Shown piece after piece: positions 24,178 to 37,256 of a stretch of DNA of 64,000 nucleotides. Position 1 is the first letter of the stretch, and each line of letters starts with the position of its first letter. A program made the translations under genes and the position numbers. The notes beneath the pieces are model-generated. The model was not told the DNA's origin. It saw only the letters and a list, made by a program, of their open reading frames with translations, and did no database searches. This stretch comes from Actinobacteria bacterium IMCC26077 (GTDB lineage: Bacteria > Actinomycetota > Actinomycetes > Nanopelagicales > Nanopelagicaceae), in assembly GCA_002284915.1 (NCBI GenBank), contig CP015606.1:372001-436000 (forward strand), given 5' to 3'.

Positions 24178-25875
24178 ATGCGTCGACAGAGAGTTGCCCC
24201 AATTTTCACCTTCCTGCTCTCCTCGATCCTGATTTTCTCAGCGCTCCCGGCGTCAGCAACTGGGCCAACTGCAACAAGCGTGCCGACAATTTCCGGAACC
24301 TTGGCGGTAGGGCAGACGCTCACTACCTCGCCCGGTGTTTGGACTCCGGCTCCCGCCAGTTACACCTACCAATGGTGGAGTTGTAGTAGCCAAGTTTTGA
24401 GTACCTGTTCGATCATCAGTGGTGCAACAAACGCAACGTATACATTGACAAATTCTGATGGTGGAAATTATTTCTACGCACAAGTCACTGCGTTGAGCGC
24501 TGGCGGTGGTACTACTGCTAATAGTGCGATTAGCGGAAGAGTATTAACGCAACCAACGGTTGTCGTCGCGCCCACCATTACTGGATCTGTCCTTGTTGGC
24601 ACCACGCTAACGTTGAGTAGTGGAACCTGGAGCGGTGCCACCTCACCGGCGTTTTCGTATCAGTGGCAGAAGTGTTCTTCAACTGACGTATCAACCTGTA
24701 CAAATATCTCAGGAGCAACCTCTACTGGATTTACAGTCACCTCTGCCGAAGTAGGTTCCTACTTACGAGGCCAGGTATCGGTAGCGGCAAATGCATTTAA
24801 TCTTGCTGGTTCGACTTTCTCGGGTCTAACAAGTCAGATTTCATCAGAGCCAATTACCCTCTCATTACCAGCCATCACTGGATTGATCGCAGCTGATGAA
24901 GTGTTAACTGCGACGCGAGGGACTTTCGCGGCATTCCCGCTCCCTACTTTCACGCAACAATGGCAGGTTTGCACTTCTACCGACATCACAACGTGCGCGC
25001 CGATTGATGGTGCGACGGGGTTGACTTATACTGTCAAAGAAAGTGATGTGGGCAAGTATTTCCGAATCATGGTCACCGCTTCTAATAACCTCGGTGTAAA
25101 GGGTTCGCCAAGTGCGTTGACCACCGTCGCAGTGAAAACTGCTTTACCTGCCAACACCCTCGCTCCGGCAATCACTGGTTCACCCGTGGATCGCCAGACG
25201 CTCACACTTACCTTAGGCACGTGGAGCGGCGTGCCCACCCCAACAACTGCGGCGCAATGGCAACTCTGCACTGATGCCGCAGGCGCAAATTGCTCTGATA
25301 TCTCTGGAGCAACGAACGCTACGTTGAAATTAACCTTTGCAGATCTCGGAAAATACTTCCGCGCAAAGGTCACTGCGACTAATCGAATCGGAGTGGTTTC
25401 AGCGAACTCCAATCTCCTTGGCCCGGTTGTCGCCGCGACCAAACTTGATCGCGCACCATCGACATTTGGATTTTTACAAGTAGGTCAAGAGTGGATTGCA
25501 ACTCCAGGTATCTGGAGCGGGGCGCTCGCGCCAACATATTCCTATCAGTGGCAACGATGTGCCGACGAAAAGGGAGCAACCTGCACTGATATCGCAGGCG
25601 CTACGAAGAAGGAGTACACCATTCAGGGTGCGGATAAAGGGTTTTATATCCGTGTAAAGAATTGGATTGCCGATCAAACGCTCCCTGCATATAGCGAGAT
25701 CCTCGCAGTGAAGATCGCTGCTAAACCAGAATTGCCGAAGGTTGAAGAAACGGCAGAACCTTCGGCGAAACCCGCCCCTGCAAAGCGCATCACCATTACC
25801 TGCGTAAAGGGTAAGACGACAAAGCGGGTCACCGCCGCTAACCCAAAGTGCCCCACCGGTTTTAAGAAAAAGTAG
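24178..25875 (+). CDS. Exported five-repeat Ig-like protein with Cys-containing C-terminal tag
   Basis: The 565-residue protein has a signal peptide (MRRQRVAPIFTFLLSSILIF, cleavage near ASA-TG) and five repeats of about 90 residues. Each repeat has the pattern P.ITG....G.TLT...G.W, then YQW..C, a second Cys, ISGAT...Y.L/V....GKYFR..V. The Cys pair in each repeat could form a disulfide. After a Pro/Ala/Glu linker the protein ends in a 26-residue tag with CVKGK and KCPTGFKKK, shared with the proteins at 25889 and 63118. It is probably a cell-surface adhesin or structural protein. The ATG lies nine bases behind a -10 box. Confidence 0.82.
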   Translation: MRRQRVAPIFTFLLSSILIFSALPASATGPTATSVPTISGTLAVGQTLTTSPGVWTPAPASYTYQWWSCSSQVLSTCSIISGATNATYTLTNSDGGNYFYAQVTALSAGGGTTANSAISGRVLTQPTVVVAPTITGSVLVGTTLTLSSGTWSGATSPAFSYQWQKCSSTDVSTCTNISGATSTGFTVTSAEVGSYLRGQVSVAANAFNLAGSTFSGLTSQISSEPITLSLPAITGLIAADEVLTATRGTFAAFPLPTFTQQWQVCTSTDITTCAPIDGATGLTYTVKESDVGKYFRIMVTASNNLGVKGSPSALTTVAVKTALPANTLAPAITGSPVDRQTLTLTLGTWSGVPTPTTAAQWQLCTDAAGANCSDISGATNATLKLTFADLGKYFRAKVTATNRIGVVSANSNLLGPVVAATKLDRAPSTFGFLQVGQEWIATPGIWSGALAPTYSYQWQRCADEKGATCTDIAGATKKEYTIQGADKGFYIRVKNWIADQTLPAYSEILAVKIAAKPELPKVEETAEPSAKPAPAKRITITCVKGKTTKRVTAANPKCPTGFKKK

Positions 25876-25888
25876 TAAATTCCCTGCC

Positions 25889-27547
25889 ATGAGGCAGCGC
25901 ACTCGATTTACCGTACTCACTACCGCAACGCTTGCATCGTTGCTTCTCTCACTGCTTCCTAGCTACGGCGCAATCTGGGCCCCGGATATTCGCCCACCCG
26001 GCCCGAATGTAGTTGGCGTAAATATCGTTGATTCATTCTTTAACACCGGCGAAAACGTATCCACACTCACCGCGCAAGGTACGCCACGAATTAACCCTGA
26101 TGGAACTCCGAACGCGCGCCTCTGTAAAGCAATTGGCACTGCTCCATGCGATAAACCTGATCAAACTTTTGTGGCAAATCTGCTCTTAGGTGCATGCAAG
26201 TCGCCAGCTGATCAATGGTGCGTTGAAAATTTAAGTGTCCGTAAAAAAGTTGAATCACAAACAAAGCTTGCAACATTTCTTCGCCAAGTGAATGGTCAAA
26301 CTGTAATTAACACTCCAGGTGATGGACTTCCTGGTGGGTCAACTATGAGTCTCTGGCGTGCAGAAGGTTTGAATAATTCCGGTGGCGTTGATACCTACGC
26401 GGTCTATGTCGTATTAAAAGCCACAAAGGCGCCAGGTAGAGGTCCAGTATTCGACGAATTTACGGCGATGGTTCTTCCCTATTCAGAGAAGAGCGGTTTC
26501 CAATACGAACAAGCAGCAACAGATGAGATGGTCTTGCCTAACGGAACTATTCGGGTAGGCAGTCGTGGTTCTTCTCCTGAGTGCGCATGGACTGAAGCAG
26601 GTAAGTGTGGCTTGATGGAAGATTTTCCCGTTGATACCAGGGCATCAGTCACGCTCCGAGTAAGCAATCAATTGACTGGATGGTTGATGGGGCGAATGGC
26701 TGATCCGATCATTGATGTCCAGCCTATTGATGCAGAGCAAAATAAAATTTCGATAGATGCAGAGCCAGTAAAAGTGCCGAAGTTTTTTGCGACCACTGAT
26801 CGCACTACTGCCTCCCCGGCGATACTTGCCTCTCTTCCACGCAATGCGGATTTCTCAGGAGTAACAAATGGGCGTGCAAATGAACAAGGGGCATTTGCAA
26901 CCATCGCAAATTGGAAAGATATCGCAAAAGATACGGCGGCAGGTGTCGTGAGCACTTGGTCAGCGACGACGATATCGAATGGCTTTGGATCACCATGCTT
27001 ATCTGATAGAAGTAAATTACTTGGTGTTGTCACGACAAATGCAATGGTCTACGAGGGCACTGCACCTCGATTTGAGAATAGTACGTTGAATTACCAAGTA
27101 GGTGGCATGCATCTCAATCCTGACGGCACAGTATTCCAAGGCAGTTACGATCTGGTGATGCGCAAAGCAACAGCGCAGTGTCTCTATGGATTTACCGATG
27201 CGCCAATAACTGCGATTGTGACGGTTGTTGATGCTGGCAAAGAAGAGCGGATCGAAACTTCATCGCTCCAAGAGCTCGGCACGGGCGCTGATAAATGGTT
27301 GAAACTCTCCGCGCGCGGCTTCACTTTCTCGAGCCCAACCCTCAAGATCAAACTCAATCAAGCCAAACCTGCAGCGCCAGCGCCCACCCAATCGACAGCG
27401 CCTGCTGGTGAACAGAAAGCTGCAGCGCCAGCAGCCCCCGCGGTGAAGGCACCAGCGAAAATCTCCATTACATGCGTGAAAGGCAAGCTCACTCGCAAGG
27501 TTCTTGGCCTAGCGCCCAAATGCCCTGCTGGTTTCAAGAGGAAATAG
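25889..27547 (+). CDS. Exported protein with Cys-containing C-terminal tag, paralogue of 63118 gene
   Basis: I do not recognise a named family. The 552-residue protein has a signal peptide (hydrophobic LTTATLASLLLSLLPS, cleavage near YGA) and a large globular region of about 430 residues with scattered Cys. It has a Pro/Ala linker and the terminal tag with CVKGK and KCPAGFKRK. The part from about residue 390 (DGTVFQGSYDLVMRK, LYGFTDAPITA, LSARGFTFSSPTLKIKLNQ) matches the partial gene at the right window edge closely. It follows the Ig-like repeat gene by thirteen bases and probably shares its transcript. A surface role is inferred from export. Confidence 0.75.
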   Translation: MRQRTRFTVLTTATLASLLLSLLPSYGAIWAPDIRPPGPNVVGVNIVDSFFNTGENVSTLTAQGTPRINPDGTPNARLCKAIGTAPCDKPDQTFVANLLLGACKSPADQWCVENLSVRKKVESQTKLATFLRQVNGQTVINTPGDGLPGGSTMSLWRAEGLNNSGGVDTYAVYVVLKATKAPGRGPVFDEFTAMVLPYSEKSGFQYEQAATDEMVLPNGTIRVGSRGSSPECAWTEAGKCGLMEDFPVDTRASVTLRVSNQLTGWLMGRMADPIIDVQPIDAEQNKISIDAEPVKVPKFFATTDRTTASPAILASLPRNADFSGVTNGRANEQGAFATIANWKDIAKDTAAGVVSTWSATTISNGFGSPCLSDRSKLLGVVTTNAMVYEGTAPRFENSTLNYQVGGMHLNPDGTVFQGSYDLVMRKATAQCLYGFTDAPITAIVTVVDAGKEERIETSSLQELGTGADKWLKLSARGFTFSSPTLKIKLNQAKPAAPAPTQSTAPAGEQKAAAPAAPAVKAPAKISITCVKGKLTRKVLGLAPKCPAGFKRK

Positions 27548-27729: not shown

Positions 27730-28056
27730 TCACGAACTTTTTGCGAGGAACTCCTCGACAGCTTGTCGGATGAGAGCAGAAGGTGTCTCACCGCGAGCTT
27801 GGGCAGCTGCCTCTAATTTCTCTTTAAGAGGCGCAGGTACACGCGCCTTGATCTCGGGGGAGTGCACTGTGGGTGCAGTCAGTGAAGGACGCCCAACGTA
27901 AGGGCCATGTTCTTCGATCTCTTTGACCATCGCATCGATACGAGCGTTGGTGTAGCGCACGCCGTTCTGGTCGAGGAAAACTTCTTTATCGAAATCAACA
28001 TCTGGACCTTCAATATATTTTGAACTTCGCGCCTGAGCCGCAGATCTACGCTTCAT
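27730..28056 (-). CDS. Putative antitoxin with ribbon-helix-helix-like C terminus
   Basis: From ATG 28056, preceded by a strong AAGGAGG, the product has 108 residues. The last third (IKARVPAPLKEKLEAAAQ, then GETPSALIRQAVEEFL) has the strand-helix-helix pattern of CopG/Arc-type DNA-binding antitoxins. The N-terminal part is basic and then acidic, which would suit toxin wrapping, although the usual order in such proteins varies. It overlaps the upstream toxin-like gene by eleven bases. Confidence 0.65.
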   Translation of the reverse strand: MKRRSAAQARSSKYIEGPDVDFDKEVFLDQNGVRYTNARIDAMVKEIEEHGPYVGRPSLTAPTVHSPEIKARVPAPLKEKLEAAAQARGETPSALIRQAVEEFLAKSS

Positions 28057-28309
28057 TCTTTTTCCTCCTTCTATTGAAAGCTCCTGGCATAACATGAATT
28101 ACAAGAATTACCGTCACGTAGTCGATCGCGATAACCTCTAATTCACGTCCTCTTTCGTCGATTCCTAGCCACAGCAGTTTTGAAGTTCCCTCATCGTCGA
28201 ACTTTTTAGGTTCGTATTTATCCATTACATATCGAGCGCTTGTTTTCCCGATGCGGTGCTTGCGCGCCGATTGGGCAAAGCGCCGAAGCGGTAATTCTGG
28301 AGACATCAT
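28046..28309 (-). CDS. Putative toxin, BrnT/DUF4258-like small protein
   Basis: The 87-residue basic protein contains SARKHRIGKTSARYVMD, LLWLGIDERGRELEVIAID and VIHVMPGAFNRRRKK. This resembles actinobacterial small proteins of the pattern ARKHGI...G.DR.G..LE...VI.HAM, usually annotated as toxins of BrnT- or DUF4258-like pairs; the match is by eye. ATG 28309 is preferred over GTG 28321. A perfect palindrome lies immediately upstream. The toxin gene comes first and overlaps the antitoxin, as in brnTA and higBA modules. An RNase role is only a guess. Confidence 0.6.
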   Translation of the reverse strand: MMSPELPLRRFAQSARKHRIGKTSARYVMDKYEPKKFDDEGTSKLLWLGIDERGRELEVIAIDYVTVILVIHVMPGAFNRRRKKNEA

Positions 28310-28310
28310 A

Positions 28311-28325
28311 TTATGTGCCACATAA
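28311..28325. promoter_or_regulatory. Palindromic operator-like site before the toxin-antitoxin pair
   Basis: TTATGTGCCACATAA is a perfect 7-bp palindrome around one central base, ending one base before the toxin ATG on the minus strand. Position and symmetry fit autoregulation by an antitoxin with a ribbon-helix-helix fold. If GTG 28321 were the true start, the site would lie inside the gene, which argues for ATG 28309. Confidence 0.5.
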
Positions 28326-28805
28326 AAATAGAACTACTTCTTGTTGCTTGATAGGTTTTCGAGATCAACATGGCGGCAAAGGTAGGTAATGCCTCTGACA
28401 GGGCCAGCTCACTTATCCACCGCCCACAAGGAGCCGGTTTTCACAGGAAACCCTCAACACACCCTTGAGGGTTTTAGGGAAATCCCGCGTAATCTGCCCC
28501 GGAGAACCTAAACTTCTACCTATATATAGGCGCCAATTTCCCCGCTGGGCGCCTATTCCGGTAGGTTAGCCCTATCCCCAAACGCCTGAAACCAGGCGCC
28601 TGACGCATACAACAGGCCAAATAAGCGGCCGCAAGCGATGCTTGATCCAAATCACCGCAGGGCAGAAGTACGAAATGTCCGATTTGTCCCGTCAACGCGA
28701 CAAATAGCGACCAGATCCGTAGAAGCCAATGTAGGGCCGAGACGTCGACCTGAGTAGTACCTCCAGCAATGGAGATAAGTAAAGACCTAGGGGCAAGAAA
28801 ACTTT
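28326..28805. other. 480-bp gene-free, hairpin-rich region before the sigma factor gene
   Basis: No convincing reading frame was found. The stretch holds several inverted repeats: a terminator-like hairpin (28448-28474); a nested hairpin with outer arms CTACC 28516-28520 / GGTAG 28560-28564 and inner arms ATAGGCGCC 28526-28534 / GGCGCCTAT 28548-28556; CGCCT 28583-28587 / AGGCG 28594-28598; ATTTGTC 28682-28688 / GACAAAT 28699-28705; and a GCAA-loop hairpin CTCCA 28761-28765 / TGGAG 28770-28774. It may contain a small RNA gene or a long structured leader. I could not match it to tmRNA, RNase P RNA, SRP RNA or 6S RNA. Confidence 0.5.
28448..28475 (+). terminator. Intrinsic terminator-like hairpin in non-coding region
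   Basis: A perfect 10-bp stem (AAACCCTCAA 28448-28457 with TTGAGGGTTT 28465-28474), a 7-nt loop and four T residues overlapping the stem end. No protein gene upstream on the plus strand ends here (the nearest is tRNA-Lys 740 bp away), so it may end a non-coding transcript. The A-rich 5' side could also act on the minus strand. Confidence 0.5.
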
Positions 28806-30323
28806 ATGGCGCGTAACAAGAAGCAAACGGCATCCGCCGCTCCCACAACATGGAGCGTTGCGGATTTTGGTGCTTTCTACACTGAGCACTCGTCCGAACT
28901 TCGCGCACATGCAGCACGCATTCTCAAAGACACTTCCCGCGCCGAAGAAGTTGTCCAAGATGCGCTGATCAAGTTCATGCTCGCTGCCCCTGAGTTGGAG
29001 TCAGCCGATCACGCCCTTGGTTATCTCCACCGCACCATCGAGAACCTTTGCGTCGATATCTTCCGCCTCGAAGGTCGTCGTCCAAACCTCGTACTCCTCG
29101 ATGATGCACAAGCAGAGGTCGAATCAACATGGGTAGATGCTGGTGACCACAGCGAAGTAATCGCACAAGCAGACGATGCCGCGATCATTCGCCAAGCACT
29201 TGCAATGCTCTCTCCCGCCGAGCGCACCGCGCTTGTGATGTGGGAAATGGATGGCCGCACCACAGAAGAGATTGCAGCAGAGCTCAACATCAAGGAGAGC
29301 GCTGTGCGCCACACCCTCTCTCGCGCTCGTGCATCACTTCGTCGCGTTCTCACCGAGATTGTCATCGACGAAGATCGTGGCCTCACTGCACTCGACATGC
29401 TCTCAACGACATACAAGCGCGCTGGCGAACTCGCGAAGAAGTCTTCGCGCGTTGCCCTCTCGCTCGTTCTTGTTCTCGCAGCATTCCTTGGCTTCAACTC
29501 CCTCACCGGAAATGAAGGAAATAACGGCTCCGATTCACGCGTTGTCGCAGAAGGCCCAGCAAACCCAGCAACACCAGCCCTCGGTGGAAACAGCAATAAC
29601 AGCAACACCAACGACAGCGCCAACACAGCAACTCCTTCACCATCAGCGAGCGCAAGCGAATCAGCCGCAGCTGACACAACAGCAGAAGAAGTCACAGCCG
29701 AAGATAACGCTGCAATCGACGAGGCAGCATCCATCGACCTTAACTCTTCCGCGAAGGCATTCTCGAAGTCGATCACTGGCGTGAAGGAATCCCTCGCGCT
29801 CGCCGGTCCTTCTGCCTTCCCAGGCGTCGATGCCAACGGACTTCCAAATGGTTTCACCATTAACGATTCTGGTGACTATGCAGGTAACGCTGTCCTTAAG
29901 AATTTCGGCGATCCAACTCGCATTGGTTCCAAGACCATCACCGAGTCGATCTTCGCCACTAACGATTCGAAGAATGTAAATATCATTCTCGATCAATTCG
30001 TCACTTTCACCGGAACTGTGCTGCAGTATTCGGTGGTTCCTACTGTCCGTATCAATGGGGTATGGCAAGACCTTCTTGTCATCTCAACAAATACCCGCGT
30101 TGAGACACAGGCAGATGGAACGAAGTTGATCATCGCCACCATGTTTATTGATCCTGCGAAGACTGGCGCGAACAGCGTTAAGGCTCCAGCATCAGGTCGC
30201 GATGCCGATCGCATTCCTGCGATCGTGACCGTTCGACTTCACACCACACCAATGGGTCAGACCATCATCGGCCAAGCCGTCCAGGTCCTCGATCCATTTA
30301 TTAACGCGGGAGGTGCGGTCTAA
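28806..30323 (+). CDS. Membrane-anchored ECF-type sigma factor with extracytoplasmic domain
   Basis: The first ~190 of 505 residues are an ECF sigma factor. Region 2 covers about 20-92 (FYTEHSSELRAHAARILKD, ILKDTSRAEEVVQDALIKF, LGYLHRTIENLCVDIFR). Region 4 covers about 125-185 (LSPAERTALVMWEMDGRTTE, then IAAELNIKESAVRHTLSRAR). Residues 214-234 form one strongly hydrophobic helix, preceded by KK and followed by a 75-residue Asn/Ser/Thr/Pro/Ala-rich linker and a ~190-residue beta-rich domain (311-505). Region 4 would thus be inside and the C terminus outside. No separate anti-sigma gene follows; an S-layer-like gene does. Direct sensing of the envelope by the sigma factor is inferred. AGGGG lies upstream of the ATG, at a somewhat long distance. 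Confidence 0.88.
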   Translation: MARNKKQTASAAPTTWSVADFGAFYTEHSSELRAHAARILKDTSRAEEVVQDALIKFMLAAPELESADHALGYLHRTIENLCVDIFRLEGRRPNLVLLDDAQAEVESTWVDAGDHSEVIAQADDAAIIRQALAMLSPAERTALVMWEMDGRTTEEIAAELNIKESAVRHTLSRARASLRRVLTEIVIDEDRGLTALDMLSTTYKRAGELAKKSSRVALSLVLVLAAFLGFNSLTGNEGNNGSDSRVVAEGPANPATPALGGNSNNSNTNDSANTATPSPSASASESAAADTTAEEVTAEDNAAIDEAASIDLNSSAKAFSKSITGVKESLALAGPSAFPGVDANGLPNGFTINDSGDYAGNAVLKNFGDPTRIGSKTITESIFATNDSKNVNIILDQFVTFTGTVLQYSVVPTVRINGVWQDLLVISTNTRVETQADGTKLIIATMFIDPAKTGANSVKAPASGRDADRIPAIVTVRLHTTPMGQTIIGQAVQVLDPFINAGGAV

Positions 30324-30360: not shown

Positions 30361-30387
30361 GGAATTCGGTGTGGATTTTGATGCGTC
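30361..30387 (+). promoter_or_regulatory. Candidate ECF-type promoter of the first S-layer-like gene
   Basis: GGAATT (30361-30366) and CGTC (30384-30387) are separated by 17 bases, close to the general ECF pattern of a GGAA-type -35 and a CGTC-type -10. The -35 lies inside an inverted repeat (ACCGAAT 30352-30358 / ATTCGGT 30364-30370). Predicted transcription would start near 30395, some 30 bases before the leader hairpin. Recognition by the sigma factor encoded just upstream is an inference. Confidence 0.4.
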
Positions 30388-30420: not shown

Positions 30421-30505
30421 GTCTCTCATGGTTCATGAGAAGGCCTTTTCGATGCCAGCCGTCGCGAGGAAATCCCTTGCGGCGACTATGTTCGAAAGGA
30501 ACACA
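30421..30505 (+). promoter_or_regulatory. Conserved structured 5' leader, copy 1
   Basis: A perfect hairpin TCTCATG-GTT-CATGAGA (30424-30440) is followed by AGGCCTTTTCG, a GCCAGCCGT box, a second weak stem with GCGAC, and TTCGAAAGGAA as ribosome-binding site before ATG 30506. The same order and nearly the same bases occur before the second S-layer-like gene (37172-37256). Sequences further upstream differ between the two genes. It could control translation or mRNA stability. Confidence 0.6.
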
Positions 30506-33007
30506 ATGTTAAAAACTCTCAAGCGCAAGATCGCGCTTGTTGCAGTAGCAGGGTTGGGCTTTGGAGTTATCTCTACAGTTCCAGCTTTTGCTGCAGCCAC
30601 CGTTCCAACAGCGACTGTAGGTTATGTTGGGCGTATCGGTCTCGATGCTGATGCAAGTGGTGCAGCTGATACGAAATACACACTTGCTACAACTACTATG
30701 ACTGATGACGCTGGAGTTGATGACACAATCGCTCTTGCATTAACCTCAGGTCCAGCCGGTGGTGCTCTCACTGTTATCGATATTGGTGCCTGTGCCTGGA
30801 GCGCAGGGAATGTCGTAACCGTAGGCGGCGCTGAAATTACATTCCAAGAAACTGACTCAGACGGTGCTGGTGCAGATTGTGGAGCAACCATTGGTGCGAA
30901 TCCAACAATCACTGGACTAGCTAACCTTCCAGGTGTATATAAGTTACGCATCGGTGGTGCAGCTGCCGGCGTGACTGCAACCATTACTGTCGGAACTGCT
31001 CCTACCACTCTTACCTTCGACAAAACTGCTTACACAGGAGCTCCTGGAGTTTCACTAAACGTAGTTGCGACTCCAAAGGATTCCGCCGGTCGTACAACCT
31101 TGCTATCAGGAACTGAAGCAGTTGCACTTACTTCCTCCGATGCCACAGTAACCATCGATGCATTAGCCGGGAGCGGTCGACTAGTAGCTACCGGCGTGAA
31201 TGCGGCTGCAAACGGCGTAGTAGCACAGACAGCTGCTACAGGTGCATTCACACTTCCAATCATTGACTCGACAATTGGAACAGCTACTCTCACTTTTGAC
31301 TCTACTGCGGGTCTAATCGTTAGTGGCGCAGCAGTTTTGGCTCAAACGACCGCAAAAGTTACAGTAATTGCAGCCTCGTTGACTGAAATCACCTCAGCAA
31401 AGATCACGAATACAGGAACTATCGCTGGAACTGCTCTTACTACTGCCGTTGGCGAAGTTAAGAAGGTAAAGGCGCCAACAGATGGTGTGTTTACCCTCAC
31501 CGGAACTGTCGGCGGTCTAACTCCAAGCTCGACAAAAGTGATTCGAATCGAACAAACCGGTTTAACAACTCCAGCAAATGCGTCGACGATAGTGGTCACG
31601 GCAGATGACGCCGGTGTTGCACCAATCTCAATATCAATCACAGGCGCGAGTGATACCGATGTTATTCGATTTGGTGTTGATGGTAACGCTTCTGGTGCAT
31701 TCAATGATGCAGCAGGAGATGTTTACGCAACACTAACTTTTGAAGCTTCGCTCTTCACAATTGCTGGTGGTACCACAACTACCGTTCCATCATTCGCAAC
31801 CTCGGCAACACTGAGCACACTTGCAGCAACTGGTGCAAGTGCCTCAGTTTCAGTCACAGTTGCTGATCAATTTGGAAATCCAGGAGCTGCATATTTGTTC
31901 CGAGCCACCTCAGATGACACGGTTGCTCGCACTGTTTCGGCTCTCACTGGTTTAGACGGCAAGGCATCACTCACACTTGCTGCTCCAACTGATGCAACCG
32001 ATACTTCAGTTGTTTGGACTATAGCTCTGCTTGCACAGGACCTTGCAACACCGGTCCGCATTGCGACTGGAACAAACAATGGAACCCTGACTATCAATTA
32101 CACAACTGCAGGTAAGGCAGACTCCATCGTCTTAACAGGAGCAGGTACCACTGTCACATCTAAGACAGTTCCTTATGATGGAGTTGTAAGCGATGAAGAC
32201 ACCACGATGACAGCTACTGTATATCAAGGTGGTTCAGCAATTACCGGTGCTGTTGTAACGGTAACTGCGCCAGCCGGTTGCTTCGTGGCATCTGCTGATC
32301 CAACCGCCACAAACCCATTGTTGAGCACAAATAAGGCAACATTGACTACCACTAGTGGTACAGCTGTCTTCATGTGGTGCAACAAGACCGGAACGCAGAC
32401 TTTCACCTTTGAAAGTAATGGCGTTACAAAGACTCAAGCAGTGAAATATGTAACCGCTACTGCAGGTGCGCGTGATATCTCACTCACAACTAAAGATGCT
32501 TCTGTAACAGCGACTGTTAAGGATCTTTTCGGTAATGGAGTTTCAGGTGCGAGCGTAATTTTCACTCGCGTTGGGAATGCCGTATTTGCTGGTGGATCTA
32601 CTGTCATCACAGTTCCAACAGCTGCTGACGGAACCGCTGAAGCGATTCTTCAAGCACTAGGCACAGGTGGAAAAGTAACGGTTACTGGTACCCATTCAGG
32701 CAACCAAGCAGCTAACGCGGCAGATGCTCCTGCCGTAGGTGCTTTAGCCGCCGTAGCAAGTGCAAGCGTTGACGCCACAGTTTCGGCAACAACGGGAGCA
32801 ACTGCAACTGATGCTGCGGTCACTGCAGTCAAGGCTGACGTCAAGGCTGTCTCTGACACCGTAGCAACTCTCTCCAAGGCTGTAACAACAATCCAGTCCT
32901 CGGTCACAGAGTTGACCTCTTCCTTCTCAGCACAGATCAAGAGCCTTTCCAGCGCGATCGCAAAGATCAGCCGGGCAATTGCTGCGCTCAGCAAGAAGAT
33001 CAAGTAA
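30506..33007 (+). CDS. S-layer-like surface protein 1
   Basis: ATG 30506 with AAAGGA upstream begins an 833-residue protein; an open frame runs further upstream but is not conserved in the paralogue. The signal peptide (MLKTLKRKIALVAVAGLGFG, cleavage near AFA-AA) is followed by a long Ala/Thr/Val/Ser/Gly-rich beta-type region with few Cys (pairs near CAW/DCG and GCF/WCN) and Ig-like segments (VSVTVADQFGNPG, ARDISLTTKDASVTATVKD, FGNGVSGASVIFTR). The last ~60 residues are a coiled coil (VSDTVATLSKAVTTIQSSV and onward) almost identical to that of the paralogue at 34157. Composition and size fit a paracrystalline or abundant surface protein. It directly follows the sigma gene. Confidence 0.8.
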   Translation: MLKTLKRKIALVAVAGLGFGVISTVPAFAAATVPTATVGYVGRIGLDADASGAADTKYTLATTTMTDDAGVDDTIALALTSGPAGGALTVIDIGACAWSAGNVVTVGGAEITFQETDSDGAGADCGATIGANPTITGLANLPGVYKLRIGGAAAGVTATITVGTAPTTLTFDKTAYTGAPGVSLNVVATPKDSAGRTTLLSGTEAVALTSSDATVTIDALAGSGRLVATGVNAAANGVVAQTAATGAFTLPIIDSTIGTATLTFDSTAGLIVSGAAVLAQTTAKVTVIAASLTEITSAKITNTGTIAGTALTTAVGEVKKVKAPTDGVFTLTGTVGGLTPSSTKVIRIEQTGLTTPANASTIVVTADDAGVAPISISITGASDTDVIRFGVDGNASGAFNDAAGDVYATLTFEASLFTIAGGTTTTVPSFATSATLSTLAATGASASVSVTVADQFGNPGAAYLFRATSDDTVARTVSALTGLDGKASLTLAAPTDATDTSVVWTIALLAQDLATPVRIATGTNNGTLTINYTTAGKADSIVLTGAGTTVTSKTVPYDGVVSDEDTTMTATVYQGGSAITGAVVTVTAPAGCFVASADPTATNPLLSTNKATLTTTSGTAVFMWCNKTGTQTFTFESNGVTKTQAVKYVTATAGARDISLTTKDASVTATVKDLFGNGVSGASVIFTRVGNAVFAGGSTVITVPTAADGTAEAILQALGTGGKVTVTGTHSGNQAANAADAPAVGALAAVASASVDATVSATTGATATDAAVTAVKADVKAVSDTVATLSKAVTTIQSSVTELTSSFSAQIKSLSSAIAKISRAIAALSKKIK
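32840..32886 (+). repeat. 47-bp perfect inverted repeat, left copy
   Basis: These 47 bases, coding for part of the C-terminal coiled coil of surface protein 1, recur exactly in inverted orientation at 34278-34324 in the second surface gene. They form the core of a ~180-bp inverted repeat of about 90% identity that brackets the recombinase gene. Confidence 0.9.
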
Positions 33008-33051
33008 TACAAGTAGTTAGTGAGTAATCACTAAACACTGCTAGGTAAGTT

Positions 33052-33102
33052 CCTAAGGGCGGTTTCCTAATCCGCGAGATGCGGAGGCCGCCCTTAGGTT
33101 TT
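33052..33102 (+). terminator. Strong terminator of S-layer-like gene 1
   Basis: An 11-bp stem (CCTAAGGGCGG 33052-33062 with CCGCCCTTAGG 33088-33098) encloses a smaller CCGC/GCGG hairpin and is followed by TTTTA. It lies 45 bases after the stop of the surface gene and before the recombinase gene, so the recombinase probably has its own promoter. Confidence 0.8.
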
Positions 33103-33166
33103 ACCTTGGATGTCCGATTTGTAACGAAAGAGTGAAATATCCGAAACGGAGAAAAACGCAAGATTT

Positions 33167-34072
33167 ATGAGCGAAACTTTTTGGAATTCAGAGGAGATGT
33201 CGGGAATAAGCGACAACCGACTCTTGCGCGCAGATTTTGCGCAGGTAACTTTTGATTTCCCAGAGTTAGCGCTCATAGACGTTGTACGAAGAAAGGAATC
33301 AGAGAGATCTGAACTGAACATGAATCTTCACACACTCGCGGGTGTGATCATTCCGTTCTTGCCTATTACAGAGAAAACTCGATACACCTACACCTGGTGC
33401 TATAAACGCCATTTTGATGGCGAGCTGGGTAGTACCGATGTCAACGAAATATCTCGACAAGATATTGAACGAATTATTTCCCCGCTCCCCAAACAATCTG
33501 GCTATCAAGCCCTCATGGTCATCAAGACGCTCTTTCGAGAGGCTCACGAACGTGGGTGGGTCGATATCAACCCAACGAAGGGCATTAAAGCTCCGAAGAT
33601 AAGAACTGGTCACTCACCTTTCCTCACATGGGAAGAAGTGCGCGATGGTTTCTTTGGTAATTACGACAACCACATCCGATTCCTAGCGCTTCATGGTTTG
33701 CGCTGGGGTGAGGCAACGGCGCTCACTAAAGATGATATTCACGATGGGTTAGTGCACATCAATCAATCGGTGCATGGCGCAACAAAAACACAGTCGGGTG
33801 TACGAACCGTTCCTTATTTGGGATATTTCGAAACTTTCCCAGCAACGCGAAAACCGTTGGCAAAAGTGTTGAAGCCGTATGGAGTGAATATCCATTCGTT
33901 GCGAAAAACATATGCCTATTTACTGAAAACTAACGGAGTTCATGTGACAACGGCACAGAAGTTATTGGGCCATGCATCTCCGATGGTGACGTTATCGATT
34001 TATACCAAGGTACTTGACCAAGAGACCTTGGAGACTGGCGCGAAGATCAGCCGATCACTTGGTTTGTTGTAG
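33167..34072 (+). CDS. Tyrosine recombinase/integrase
   Basis: This 301-residue protein has an N-terminal SAM-like DNA-binding part (about 55-145; TEKTRYTYTWCYKRHF, HERGWVDINPTKGIKAPK). The catalytic domain holds all active residues: Arg179 in LHGLRWGEA, Lys207 in GATKTQSGVR, His243 and Arg246 in HSLRKTYA, His269 in LLGHASP and Tyr279 in SIYTKV. The gene lies between two inverted surface-protein genes and within their inverted 3' repeats. No other phage or element gene is present. A role in site-specific inversion at this locus is inferred. GGAG lies about 16 bases before the ATG, rather far; a later start (MNLHTLAGV) is possible. Confidence 0.88.
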   Translation: MSETFWNSEEMSGISDNRLLRADFAQVTFDFPELALIDVVRRKESERSELNMNLHTLAGVIIPFLPITEKTRYTYTWCYKRHFDGELGSTDVNEISRQDIERIISPLPKQSGYQALMVIKTLFREAHERGWVDINPTKGIKAPKIRTGHSPFLTWEEVRDGFFGNYDNHIRFLALHGLRWGEATALTKDDIHDGLVHINQSVHGATKTQSGVRTVPYLGYFETFPATRKPLAKVLKPYGVNIHSLRKTYAYLLKTNGVHVTTAQKLLGHASPMVTLSIYTKVLDQETLETGAKISRSLGLL

Positions 34073-34085
34073 TTAGGAGGGAAAT

Positions 34086-34125
34086 GCCAAAGGGGCGCCC
34101 TCCTTTTCGGAGAACGCCCCCTGGC
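34086..34125. terminator. Bidirectional terminator between recombinase and S-layer-like gene 2
   Basis: GGGGCG (34092-34097) pairs with CGCCCC (34115-34120), with an inner CTCC/GGAG stem and outer GCC/GGC pairs. It lies between two convergent genes. On the minus strand the hairpin is followed by TTTGGCATTT. Confidence 0.7.
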
Positions 34126-34156
34126 GTAATTGCAGTATCTAGTTACGAATAACTAT

Positions 34157-37100
34157 TTACTTCATCTTCTTGCTGAGCGCAGCAATTGCCTTGCTGATCT
34201 TTTCGATCGCAGCAGAGAGGCTCTTGATCTGAGCGGAGAAGGAAGAAGTCAACTCTGTGACCGAGGACTGAATGGTGGTTACAGCCTTGGAGAGAGTTGC
34301 TACGGTGTCAGAGACAGCCTTGACATCAGCCTTGACCACATCAAGTGCTGGGTTAGCAGCAGCTGCGGCAGAGGTGACGGTGAGGGCTGCAGTAGCTGAC
34401 TTTGTGCTTGCGGCTGTGAAGATTGAGCCGTTTGCAGTTAGGTCAGTTGCAAGGAAGTTGGTTGTTGCTCCGCCATCGGTACCTGCAACAGTGAGCGTTC
34501 CTGCTCCTGTTTCAACACCATTTGACGTTACTTCGAAGACAACCTGTCCACTTGCATCTGTGTTTACAGCTGCTTGGGTACGTCCGCCACCTGTGAAGCG
34601 ACCAGCGGTACCGGTGATAGCACCAGTAAGCGCTACACCAGCGACTGGGTTGCCCCAGACATCTTTAACAGTTGCGATGATTTGATCAACGTTTCCGTTA
34701 AGAGCCGATGTTGCCTTGCCAAGTGTGAGAACACGGCCAGTTGCAGCAGCAGCAGGTGCATCGAAACCGGAGTTTGCGATCGCGAGGAACTCGCCCTTAA
34801 CTGTTGCAGTACCAGCGGAGAATGTTACGGAGCTCGTTCCAACCTTTGAACCAGTGACGTAGAAGGTCGCGATGCCTTGGGCATTTGTTGCGATCTTAAG
34901 ATCAGTGGTTGCGCTGTTGAATGCTGAGTAGAGAACGTTGGCAGCAGCTGCGCTGTTGACAAGCACTCCATCTCCTGGGGCTGCAGTAACAACTACACCA
35001 GCAGCTCCGGCGCCAGAATCATCAGTGACCTTGACGGTCATGACGGTGTGGGTACCAGCAGTTGCGATGTCCTTTGTGGTCACTGTGGTTGCAGTTCCAG
35101 CAGACTTATCTGCATCAGCTGTGCTGATGTCTCCATCTGCATCAATCTTCACGCGGAAGATTGTCGTTGTGGTGTTAGCACCACCGGTGATAGTGATTGC
35201 AGCAGGAGCACCAGTAGCTGTAACGGTAAAGCTAACAGTATTGGTGGTTGCCATTGCTACGTTGTTGTAGCTAAGACCGGTGAAGGTATAGGTATAAGTA
35301 CCAGCCTTCGAACCAAGAACTACGTTGAAGGTAGTCTTTCCATCAGCACCAACGGTCTGAGTAGCAGCAGTTTGAGCTGTTGCTCCAACTGGAACTACCG
35401 TGTTGGTCATAGTGACAGTTGCACCAGGTGATGCCACGCTGAACTGATCAGCAGTGGTTGCTACAACTGGAATTGTTGCACTTGCAGCAGCAAAGGTGTT
35501 TGTACCGTTAGCTGGTGAAGTGGTGACATCTGCAGTTGCAGTTGCCCATGTAACAGTCGCGATGGTGGTGGAAGTAACATTTCCGGCGCCATCAGCATCT
35601 ACTGCAATGCTGTAGATGTCAGCGTTGTTAACTGTTCCTGCAATAGTCATCACGATGGTGATTTTTCCTGCAGCATCAGCGACAGGTGTTGCAGCATCAA
35701 CAGAACATGAGGAGTTATTTCCTGCATCTGCATCTTCAGTACAGCTAACCGCTGCAACCTTATTCGCATCGAGACCGGTTACCACAGCGTTTACCTTGGT
35801 AACAGTCAAACCAGCAGTGTAAGCAGGAGCAGTGCCAGCAACGAAGCCGGTTCCGTTTCCAGCAGTGATCTTCGAGCTAGCAAGTGCAGCCTTTGTTGCA
35901 CCATAACCGGTGACAGTTACTGCAACAGAAGCAGTGATGGACGCTGAGCTTCCAGCAGTAACAGTGAAGGTAAGGGTGTCAGTACCAGCAGTTGCAGCAG
36001 CAGTGTAGGTAAATGCGTTACCAGTTCCTGCGGCACCTGTGGCTGCTGAAGAAGCGATTGTGCTTGCAGCAGATGAGCTAGAAGTAGGCGTTACACCTTC
36101 AACTACTGCTCCGGTGCTGTCCTTGAGTTCCCACTTGTAATCTGTCGCTCCGACAGTTCCGCTTGCAGGAAGTGAGATAGCAGTCACTGCTGAGCTATCG
36201 GACTGCTTCAAGATACGTAGCGTTCCCGCTAGACCTGAAGTAGATGCAGCCCAACGGTAGGTTGCTGAGGTGGTTCCAAAAGCTGCAAGACCAGAAATGA
36301 TCGTTGCATTTAGCTTATAGGTCACTCCAGCAGTTGTATTTCCGCCACCGCAACCAGTTGTTCCTGGGTTGGTGTTATCGATTGCAACGGTGTAACCAGT
36401 GAAAACTCCAGTTGCAGCGTCATATGCTTGATCAGCAGCAGCCGAGTCAGCAGGAGTTGCAGGAGCACAAACGCCAGAAGCTACTGTGTCAAGTGAGTAA
36501 GTGATTGCTTCTGATCCACGAAGGAATGTGGAACGACCTGAAGAATCCTTCACCGAAGCAACAAACGACGAATCTGTTGCAGCATTAGCAATCTGGGTAC
36601 GACCAACCCGATCAAATGAGACGGTTGATGGCGCGCCAACGTTGTAAACGGTGATTGCTCCGATGGAGAATCCATCAGTTGCAAAAGAGGATGCAGCGGA
36701 AGAATCGGCACAAACGTTCCAAGTTCCAGCTGAAAGTGATGCTGTTGTGATTGTCAATGTATTTGCACCAGCTGCTGCTGTGACAACAACGATTTTTCCA
36801 GCGGTGTAAGTAGTGACTGTTGCAGCATTAGCAATAGCAGTTCCGGCATCACCGGTTAGGGTTGCCATTCCCGCTAACATTGTTGCATCTGCAGCATTAC
36901 AAGCAGCAGTTGTCACGGCAATGTGATATGCAGTATCGACTGCAGCACCTTCCGCGATTTTGAGGGTTTGAACGCCCGCACGAGCTTTAGCTGTGTCGGC
37001 TGTGTCATTTGCTCCAGCTGTAACAACAAGGGTGCTGTTCGCTTGAGTGAGGTTTAAGTTCGCCACAACTGTGTCTGCGGCTGCAGCGTTAGCTGGAACT

Positions 37101-37171
37101 GTGGACACAAGTCCAAAGCCCAACCCTGCCACTGCAACAAGAGCGATCTTGCTCTTGAGAGTTTTTAACAT
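34157..37171 (-). CDS. S-layer-like surface protein 2
   Basis: The 1004-residue protein has a signal peptide nearly identical to that of surface protein 1 (MLKTLKSKIALVAVAGLGFG, cleavage near ANA-AA). It has a long Ala/Thr/Gly/Ser-rich beta-type region with repeated Ig-like units, a few Cys (CNAAD, CADSS, CTEDADAGNNSSCS) and the same C-terminal coiled coil ending in KKMK. Central parts of the two proteins do not align well by eye. GAAAGGAAA precedes the ATG and a conserved hairpin leader lies upstream. It is convergent with the recombinase gene. An abundant outer surface layer is the likely role, possibly as an alternative to protein 1. Confidence 0.8.
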   Translation of the reverse strand: MLKTLKSKIALVAVAGLGFGLVSTVPANAAAADTVVANLNLTQANSTLVVTAGANDTADTAKARAGVQTLKIAEGAAVDTAYHIAVTTAACNAADATMLAGMATLTGDAGTAIANAATVTTYTAGKIVVVTAAAGANTLTITTASLSAGTWNVCADSSAASSFATDGFSIGAITVYNVGAPSTVSFDRVGRTQIANAATDSSFVASVKDSSGRSTFLRGSEAITYSLDTVASGVCAPATPADSAAADQAYDAATGVFTGYTVAIDNTNPGTTGCGGGNTTAGVTYKLNATIISGLAAFGTTSATYRWAASTSGLAGTLRILKQSDSSAVTAISLPASGTVGATDYKWELKDSTGAVVEGVTPTSSSSAASTIASSAATGAAGTGNAFTYTAAATAGTDTLTFTVTAGSSASITASVAVTVTGYGATKAALASSKITAGNGTGFVAGTAPAYTAGLTVTKVNAVVTGLDANKVAAVSCTEDADAGNNSSCSVDAATPVADAAGKITIVMTIAGTVNNADIYSIAVDADGAGNVTSTTIATVTWATATADVTTSPANGTNTFAAASATIPVVATTADQFSVASPGATVTMTNTVVPVGATAQTAATQTVGADGKTTFNVVLGSKAGTYTYTFTGLSYNNVAMATTNTVSFTVTATGAPAAITITGGANTTTTIFRVKIDADGDISTADADKSAGTATTVTTKDIATAGTHTVMTVKVTDDSGAGAAGVVVTAAPGDGVLVNSAAAANVLYSAFNSATTDLKIATNAQGIATFYVTGSKVGTSSVTFSAGTATVKGEFLAIANSGFDAPAAAATGRVLTLGKATSALNGNVDQIIATVKDVWGNPVAGVALTGAITGTAGRFTGGGRTQAAVNTDASGQVVFEVTSNGVETGAGTLTVAGTDGGATTNFLATDLTANGSIFTAASTKSATAALTVTSAAAAANPALDVVKADVKAVSDTVATLSKAVTTIQSSVTELTSSFSAQIKSLSAAIEKISKAIAALSKKMK
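34278..34324 (-). repeat. 47-bp perfect inverted repeat, right copy
   Basis: Exact reverse complement of 32840-32886, inside the coiled-coil coding part of surface gene 2. Flanking bases on both sides are also similar; a further 23-bp exact match follows after a few differences. Confidence 0.9.
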
Positions 37172-37256
37172 TTGTTTCCTTTCGAAACTAGTCGCTCCCA
37201 GGAATCTCCCAGGAACGGCTGGCGAAAACAGGCCGTCTCATGAACCATGAGACGGC
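37172..37256 (-). promoter_or_regulatory. Conserved structured 5' leader, copy 2
   Basis: On the minus strand a perfect 11-bp hairpin (GCCGTCTCATG-GTT-CATGAGACGGC, 37256 to 37232) is followed by CTGTTTTCG, a GCCAGCCGT box, GGAGCGACTA and TTCGAAAGGAAAC before the ATG. Order and spacing match copy 1 (30421-30505). The remaining 73 bases up to the next gene are AT-rich and may hold the promoter; I see no clear -35/-10 pair there. Confidence 0.6.

Follow-up and report, generated by a model that had tools for sequence, protein, structure and literature searches.

An ECF sigma factor fused to a predicted membrane helix and outer domain is conserved beside a structured leader RNA and an S-layer-like gene in the Nanopelagicaceae

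How would a sigma factor that carries its own membrane helix and outer domain be held and released, and which genes would it control? This question is raised by a gene in a stretch of 64,000 nucleotides from Actinobacteria bacterium IMCC26077 (contig CP015606.1, positions 372,001 to 436,000), the whole of which is referred to here as the window. The genome containing the window is a single contig of 1.55 Mb, and its close relatives include Ca. Planktophila lacus, family Ca. Nanopelagicaceae. The Nanopelagicaceae are a widespread freshwater family (the acI lineage). An earlier note on the same DNA had described ECF regions 2 and 4, one membrane helix, a linker and a beta-rich end in one frame, and had proposed that the protein could sense the state of the surface layer directly and be released by proteolysis. 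The reading preferred in this study is a self-contained surface-layer control module, in which a tethered sigma factor would be released by proteolysis and would drive its own operon, while an intercistronic RNA would set the output of the S-layer-like protein. This reading is offered tentatively, since its chance of being correct is considered to fall a little short of even.

The sigma gene (28806-30323, + strand) is a single uninterrupted frame of 505 residues. Pfam identifies sigma region 2 at residues 24-91 (28875-29078; PF04542, Sigma70_r2, E 1.4e-10) and sigma region 4 at residues 127-178 (29184-29339; PF08281, Sigma70_r4_2, E 3.9e-14), and the NCBIfam model TIGR02937 (sigma70-ECF) also passes its cut-off. 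Region 3 has just a sub-threshold Pfam match, which overlaps region 4. With regions 2 and 4 present and region 3 absent, the protein is an ECF (group IV) sigma factor. The most hydrophobic stretch of 19 residues is found at 216-234 (29451-29507; mean hydropathy 2.1) and is flanked by five Lys or Arg residues before and one after. This pattern is repeated in 22 relatives, giving 23 sequences in all, and it predicts that the N-terminus is inside and the C-terminus outside. The helix is followed by a low-complexity linker of Ala, Ser, Thr, Asn and Pro (residues about 235-318; 29508-29759) and by a beta-rich outer domain (residues about 330-495; 29793-30290), which was assigned with the help of the fold of the homologous domain in the relative L038. 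In the AlphaFold model of the whole protein the sigma domains are good, the linker is disordered and strands run from 351 to 495; the model also contains a helix at 217-233, with low confidence there and with pLDDT under 50 over residues 213-349. The reading frame, Pfam, hydropathy and AlphaFold thus agree on the architecture that the earlier note had described.

The protein was also searched for a means of inhibition of its own. No zinc-finger family was found in it by Pfam at E 1, and neither FecR nor any other anti-sigma family was present in the Pfam list at the same threshold. About 30 residues, without Cys or His, lie between region 4 and the helix, and the entire protein has one Cys (C82). 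This cytoplasmic segment is too short and therefore leaves no room for an anti-sigma domain. The absence of a neighbouring anti-sigma gene, which had also been claimed, held as well: none adjoins the sigma gene in the window by Pfam, and none recurs in the loci of relatives when these are read by eye.

The fusion of sigma factor, helix and outer domain is conserved across the family Nanopelagicaceae, and is both real and old. Of 73 genomes (the genome of the window and 72 family relatives), 32 have the sigma gene, whole or as a fragment, and a search of the species collection returned 31 named sigma loci. Full-length members all keep the order of sigma domains, helix, linker and beta domain. 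Among homologues, hardly any residue changes in the part that spans region 4 and the helix, the linker is variable and the outer domain is moderately conserved. In addition, a more distant relative from another family of the class (L032/L130) combines sigma regions with a hydrophobic stretch, a linker rich in proline and an outer part. Draft assemblies undercount the locus. For example, a contig of G002, a draft of the same genus, breaks at the sigma start codon (end of L152), and the absence of the sigma gene from G002 is therefore an assembly effect.

Directly downstream of the sigma gene is a gene for an S-layer-like surface protein (30506-33007, + strand), which has a signal-peptide-like start, Ig-like stretches, a C-terminal coiled coil and weak Pfam matches to Invasin_D3/Big_1. 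The start of this gene is likely to be 30506 and not 30323, because the frame from 30323 takes in the leader described below. The first residues from 30506, MLKTLKRK, match the start of the paralogue and the MSTKT starts found after the leader in relatives. A search for the same fusion next to S-layer-like genes, as the earlier note had suggested, found this arrangement in relatives without exception: in each of the 18 loci (19 copies) read far enough, the sigma gene is directly followed by an S-layer-like gene in the same orientation. The proteins encoded there have a signal-peptide-like start and, in most cases, a coiled-coil-like C-terminus, and all 37 aligned leaders run up to a signal-peptide-like start. 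The pair is present twice, in tandem, in L053. Surface-glycan genes, such as one for a Wzy-type ligase, often come after the surface gene in relatives.

Several other features were observed around the locus. The surface gene and a second one convergent with it (34157-37171, - strand) are alike at both ends and in the P3/P4 leader, which form inverted repeats (83-86%), and a tyrosine recombinase gene (33167-34072) sits between the two; the region 30424-37252 is possibly a surface-variation locus that has now diverged. Two further surface genes (24178-25875 and 25889-27547) end alike, in an ITCVKGK...KCP.GFK.K tail with two Cys that is perhaps an anchoring signal. A gene for a ribbon-helix-helix protein and a small gene that overlaps it upstream (27730-28321, - strand) look, by eye, like a toxin-antitoxin pair of the BrnT/BrnA type, and relatives of both genes also adjoin the sigma locus in G002. 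Also, a tRNA gene with a Lys-like anticodon region (CTTTTAA) is found just upstream of the sigma gene in L058 (5766-5838) and L022 (upstream of 1492), a position that resembles the borders of genomic islands.

The outer domain was found solely in these sigma proteins among the 60 genomes searched. Structure prediction, which had been proposed as a check on this part of the protein, bore out its beta-rich character: the homologous domain of L038, predicted alone, has ten strands, with a pLDDT of 86 and a pTM of 0.81. The sequence of the domain has no match in the PDB and no convincing match in Pfam. Fold searches gave nothing clear (best E 0.1 with Foldseek, best Z 5.1 with VIA-align), the weak matches being LprG, LpqH and NTF2-like proteins; the predicted fold is accordingly described as having no clear match, and it is not taken as a new one. 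The S-layer-like protein was ruled out as the source of the sensor domain, as the two share no similarity. The divergence of the sensor domain tracks that of the S-layer tail beyond that of the sigma core (partial r 0.52, permutation p 0.0005, by a partial Mantel test on 19 copies, which is liberal), and the middle of the S-layer-like protein, which is variable, gave no such correlation. These comparisons hint, weakly, that the sensor domain may contact the S-layer tail.

Between the sigma gene and the surface gene lies a leader RNA with four hairpins on the + strand. P1 (30347-30375) and P2 (30378-30406), the latter a stem with a bulged A and a GC-ACGU-GC tip, are followed by P3 (30409-30456), which is optional among relatives. 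P4 (30457-30487) is positioned just before the ribosome-binding site of the surface gene, AAAGGA (30495-30500). The UCCGGAUA loop is conserved in P1, as are the bulged A and the ACGU tip in P2. RNAalifold gave 33 consensus pairs for 37 leaders, and in 25 of the 33 both sides have changed. When the structure is held fixed, 97.7% of cells pair, versus 77% in shuffled alignments and about 50% or less when the partners are slid by 1-3 columns. The paired positions hold 128 G-U combinations versus 7 A-C. This excess indicates that the sense-strand (+) RNA is under selection, and it rules out a DNA dyad or cruciform in place of RNA. The leader of the window folds at -83.8 kcal/mol (z -7.85). No Rfam 15 family reached its gathering cut-off over the leader in a permissive search of the window or in seven relatives, and the leader pattern was absent from viral contigs. 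P1 was considered as an intrinsic terminator and rejected; a T-run follows P1 in the window, but relatives often have none. In the literature searched, no paper was found that describes this RNA or that treats the control of surface layers by a sigma factor in the order to which these bacteria belong.

The distribution of the hairpins divides the leader into two parts. A covariance model of P1 and P2 finds one strong site in the genome of the window (E 2.8e-17). Among the 73 family genomes, 27 have both the sigma gene and P1/P2, none has P1/P2 alone, five have the sigma gene alone and 41 have neither, the last number including drafts with contig breaks such as that of G002. The five genomes with the sigma gene alone comprise G040, in which it is degenerate with stops, three in which it is at a contig end (G036, G044 and G064) and G032, a complete genome. 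In G032 the sigma gene is truncated, the outer domain is gone together with the P1/P2 leader, and the S-layer-like gene is still downstream; this is a single case, yet its direction is the one expected from the control module. Ahead of the window's second surface gene the TCTCATGGTTCATGAGA part of P3 recurs, and P4 alone precedes that gene and also a sigma-less surface gene in G020. P3 and P4 thus resemble a leader common to these surface genes, and P1 and P2 a part specific to the sigma-linked pair.

The same observations bear on an alternative in which the leader RNA is the true regulator of the surface gene, by binding a protein or ligand or by attenuation, while the main targets of the sigma factor are elsewhere and the neighbours are genes of a co-moving island. 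Conservation of the loops and stems far beyond the needs of mRNA stability alone would fit this explanation, as would the P3/P4 leaders of sigma-less surface genes and the tRNA-Lys and glycan genes near the locus in some relatives. However, a free-standing regulator is at odds with P1/P2 never being found without the sigma gene and with a gene order, from sigma to surface gene, that is constant in the loci read. This alternative is considered unlikely.

In the control module preferred here, the sigma factor would be a membrane protein from the outset: the half that reads promoters would lie inside the cell, and a sensor would extend outside on a long flexible linker, which is probably long enough to span the wall. 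A satisfied sensor, for example one engaged with the assembled surface layer, would leave the sigma factor tethered and idle. Because there is no recognisable anti-sigma domain, either the tethering itself or the conserved juxtamembrane segment would have to hold the sigma factor back. If the sensor were not satisfied, the outer part would be cut, after which a site-2 protease would cut the conserved helix; the genome of the window encodes one M50 (site-2) protease. The freed sigma factor would then drive its own operon, including the surface gene directly downstream, so that sigma factor and surface protein would be made from one shared transcript. Hairpins P1-P4 would uncouple the two products, giving a stable and well-translated mRNA for the surface protein and little sigma factor. 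By this route a cell may monitor its coat and thereby determine when more of it is made. A further step, to which we give a low probability, would make the P1/P2 RNA a second sensor that binds freed sigma factor or unassembled surface protein, in which case the locus would measure its product both outside and inside the cell.

The proteolytic step has an alternative of its own, in which the sigma factor stays whole, the anchor merely positions it and the outer domain signals conformationally through the helix. The near-invariance of the juxtamembrane segment and the helix goes beyond what a plain cleavage site would need, and the protein has no anti-sigma domain that would require destruction. 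Against this, a single helix is a poor conformational route unless the protein dimerises, and the precedent among membrane-fused ECF factors, IutY, works by proteolysis (PMC8999054). Signalling by an intact sigma factor is thus regarded as rather unlikely, and release by proteolysis is retained in the preferred module.

The site that a released sigma factor would read was sought on both sides of the sigma gene. A conserved block, ATGTCCGATTTGTCC-N6-CGCGACAAAT (28675-28705, + strand), is a candidate promoter or operator of the sigma gene or operon. It occurs about 115 bp before the sigma start, in one copy each, in nearly all loci of one large clade and in the window, and the pattern, which can also be written ATGTCCGNTTTGTCC-N6-CGCNACA, is found almost nowhere else in the genome of the window. 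Autoregulation by the sigma factor, as proposed in the module, would act through this block. In some loci just a few bases separate the sigma stop from P1, and a conserved promoter within the last part of the sigma gene was ruled out, as synonymous variation is not reduced at its 3' end. The short gap and the unreduced variation favour one operon, with the surface gene transcribed from upstream of the sigma gene.

Copies related to this block were also observed at other sites. In the pattern search of the 1.55-Mb genome, the exact 13-mer ATGTCCGATTTGT was found only twice, once upstream of the sigma gene (28675-28687) and once upstream of the recombinase gene (33110-33122), which suggests shared regulation or a recombination site. 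In L155, L156 and L157, all of one genus, the motif is reversed near 1502-1515, upstream of a transglycosylase-like (weak SLT) gene beside phoH, and such reversed copies would suit an operator as well as a promoter.

The earlier note had instead proposed transcription from 30361-30387, and a third alternative is that the released sigma factor reads a promoter between the genes, at that site or in the DNA within P1/P2, and controls the surface gene from there. The strict linkage of P1/P2 to the sigma gene would be expected in this case, and the motif GGAAT-N17-CGTC does exist in the window at 30361-30387. However, it spans the P1 loop and an arm of P2, and it is not conserved among relatives, nearly all of which read GGATA in the loop while others differ; the CGTC position, moreover, changes jointly with its pairing partner among leaders. 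Since these bases lie within covarying hairpins and are not kept as a promoter, the site at 30361-30387 was rejected as a promoter and is best regarded as belonging to the leader, and the covariation and G-U bias indicate selection on RNA. A promoter at this site or within P1/P2 is considered improbable. Lastly, a joining of two genes by sequencing or assembly error has a negligible probability, as nothing beyond the unusual architecture speaks for it, the same fusion is present in dozens of independent genomes (several of them single-contig), a free-standing gene for the helix-containing part is absent from all homologues examined, and both sigma regions (2 and 4) are intact.

If the control module is correct, a single protein would link the outside of the wall to a promoter, with no anti-sigma factor in between. 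Few ECF-type regions 4 are encoded in the genome of the window, and the module offers a direct way of testing how surface control works in a streamlined cell that has very few sigma factors. Its sensor domain and its RNA element are, in addition, absent from the sequence, structure and RNA libraries searched (Pfam, PDB and Rfam 15).

Membrane-fused ECF factors have been described in other bacteria, and the protein can be compared with these. First, ECF52 (SCO4117 of Streptomyces coelicolor) has a zinc-finger domain and a carbohydrate-binding module, and positive autoregulation has been suggested and proteolytic release proposed for it (PMC5826349). Both proteins are actinobacterial ECF factors with a membrane helix, a low-complexity outer linker (proline-rich in ECF52) and an outer domain. 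However, the protein studied here is without a zinc finger, searches of its outer domain by sequence and by fold gave no carbohydrate module and no clear match of any kind, and a structured RNA and an S-layer-like gene lie downstream. Secondly, IutY (ECF243) of Pseudomonas putida is, according to a review, the sole membrane-bound ECF fusion with experimentally shown proteolytic activation, by Prc and RseP; it has a fused anti-sigma part and responds to an outer-membrane siderophore signal (PMC8999054). The two are alike as membrane-bound ECF fusions, whereas no FecR-like anti-sigma part was found here and the host is a Gram-positive-type actinobacterium. Third, ECF48 and ECF53 are described as combining one to two helices with a zinc-finger anti-sigma domain, and their release by proteolysis is expected (PMC8999054). 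These are also actinobacterial ECF factors with a C-terminal membrane portion, and a helix follows the sigma domains here too, but the zinc-finger anti-sigma domain described before the helix in those groups is absent. The leader, likewise, resembles the structured leaders of Rfam 15 in being a covarying element in a bacterial leader, but none of those families reached its threshold in the window or in the seven relatives. The sigma protein is of the membrane-fused ECF kind, and in this family it is coupled to a structured RNA that has not been catalogued and to a gene for an S-layer-like protein.
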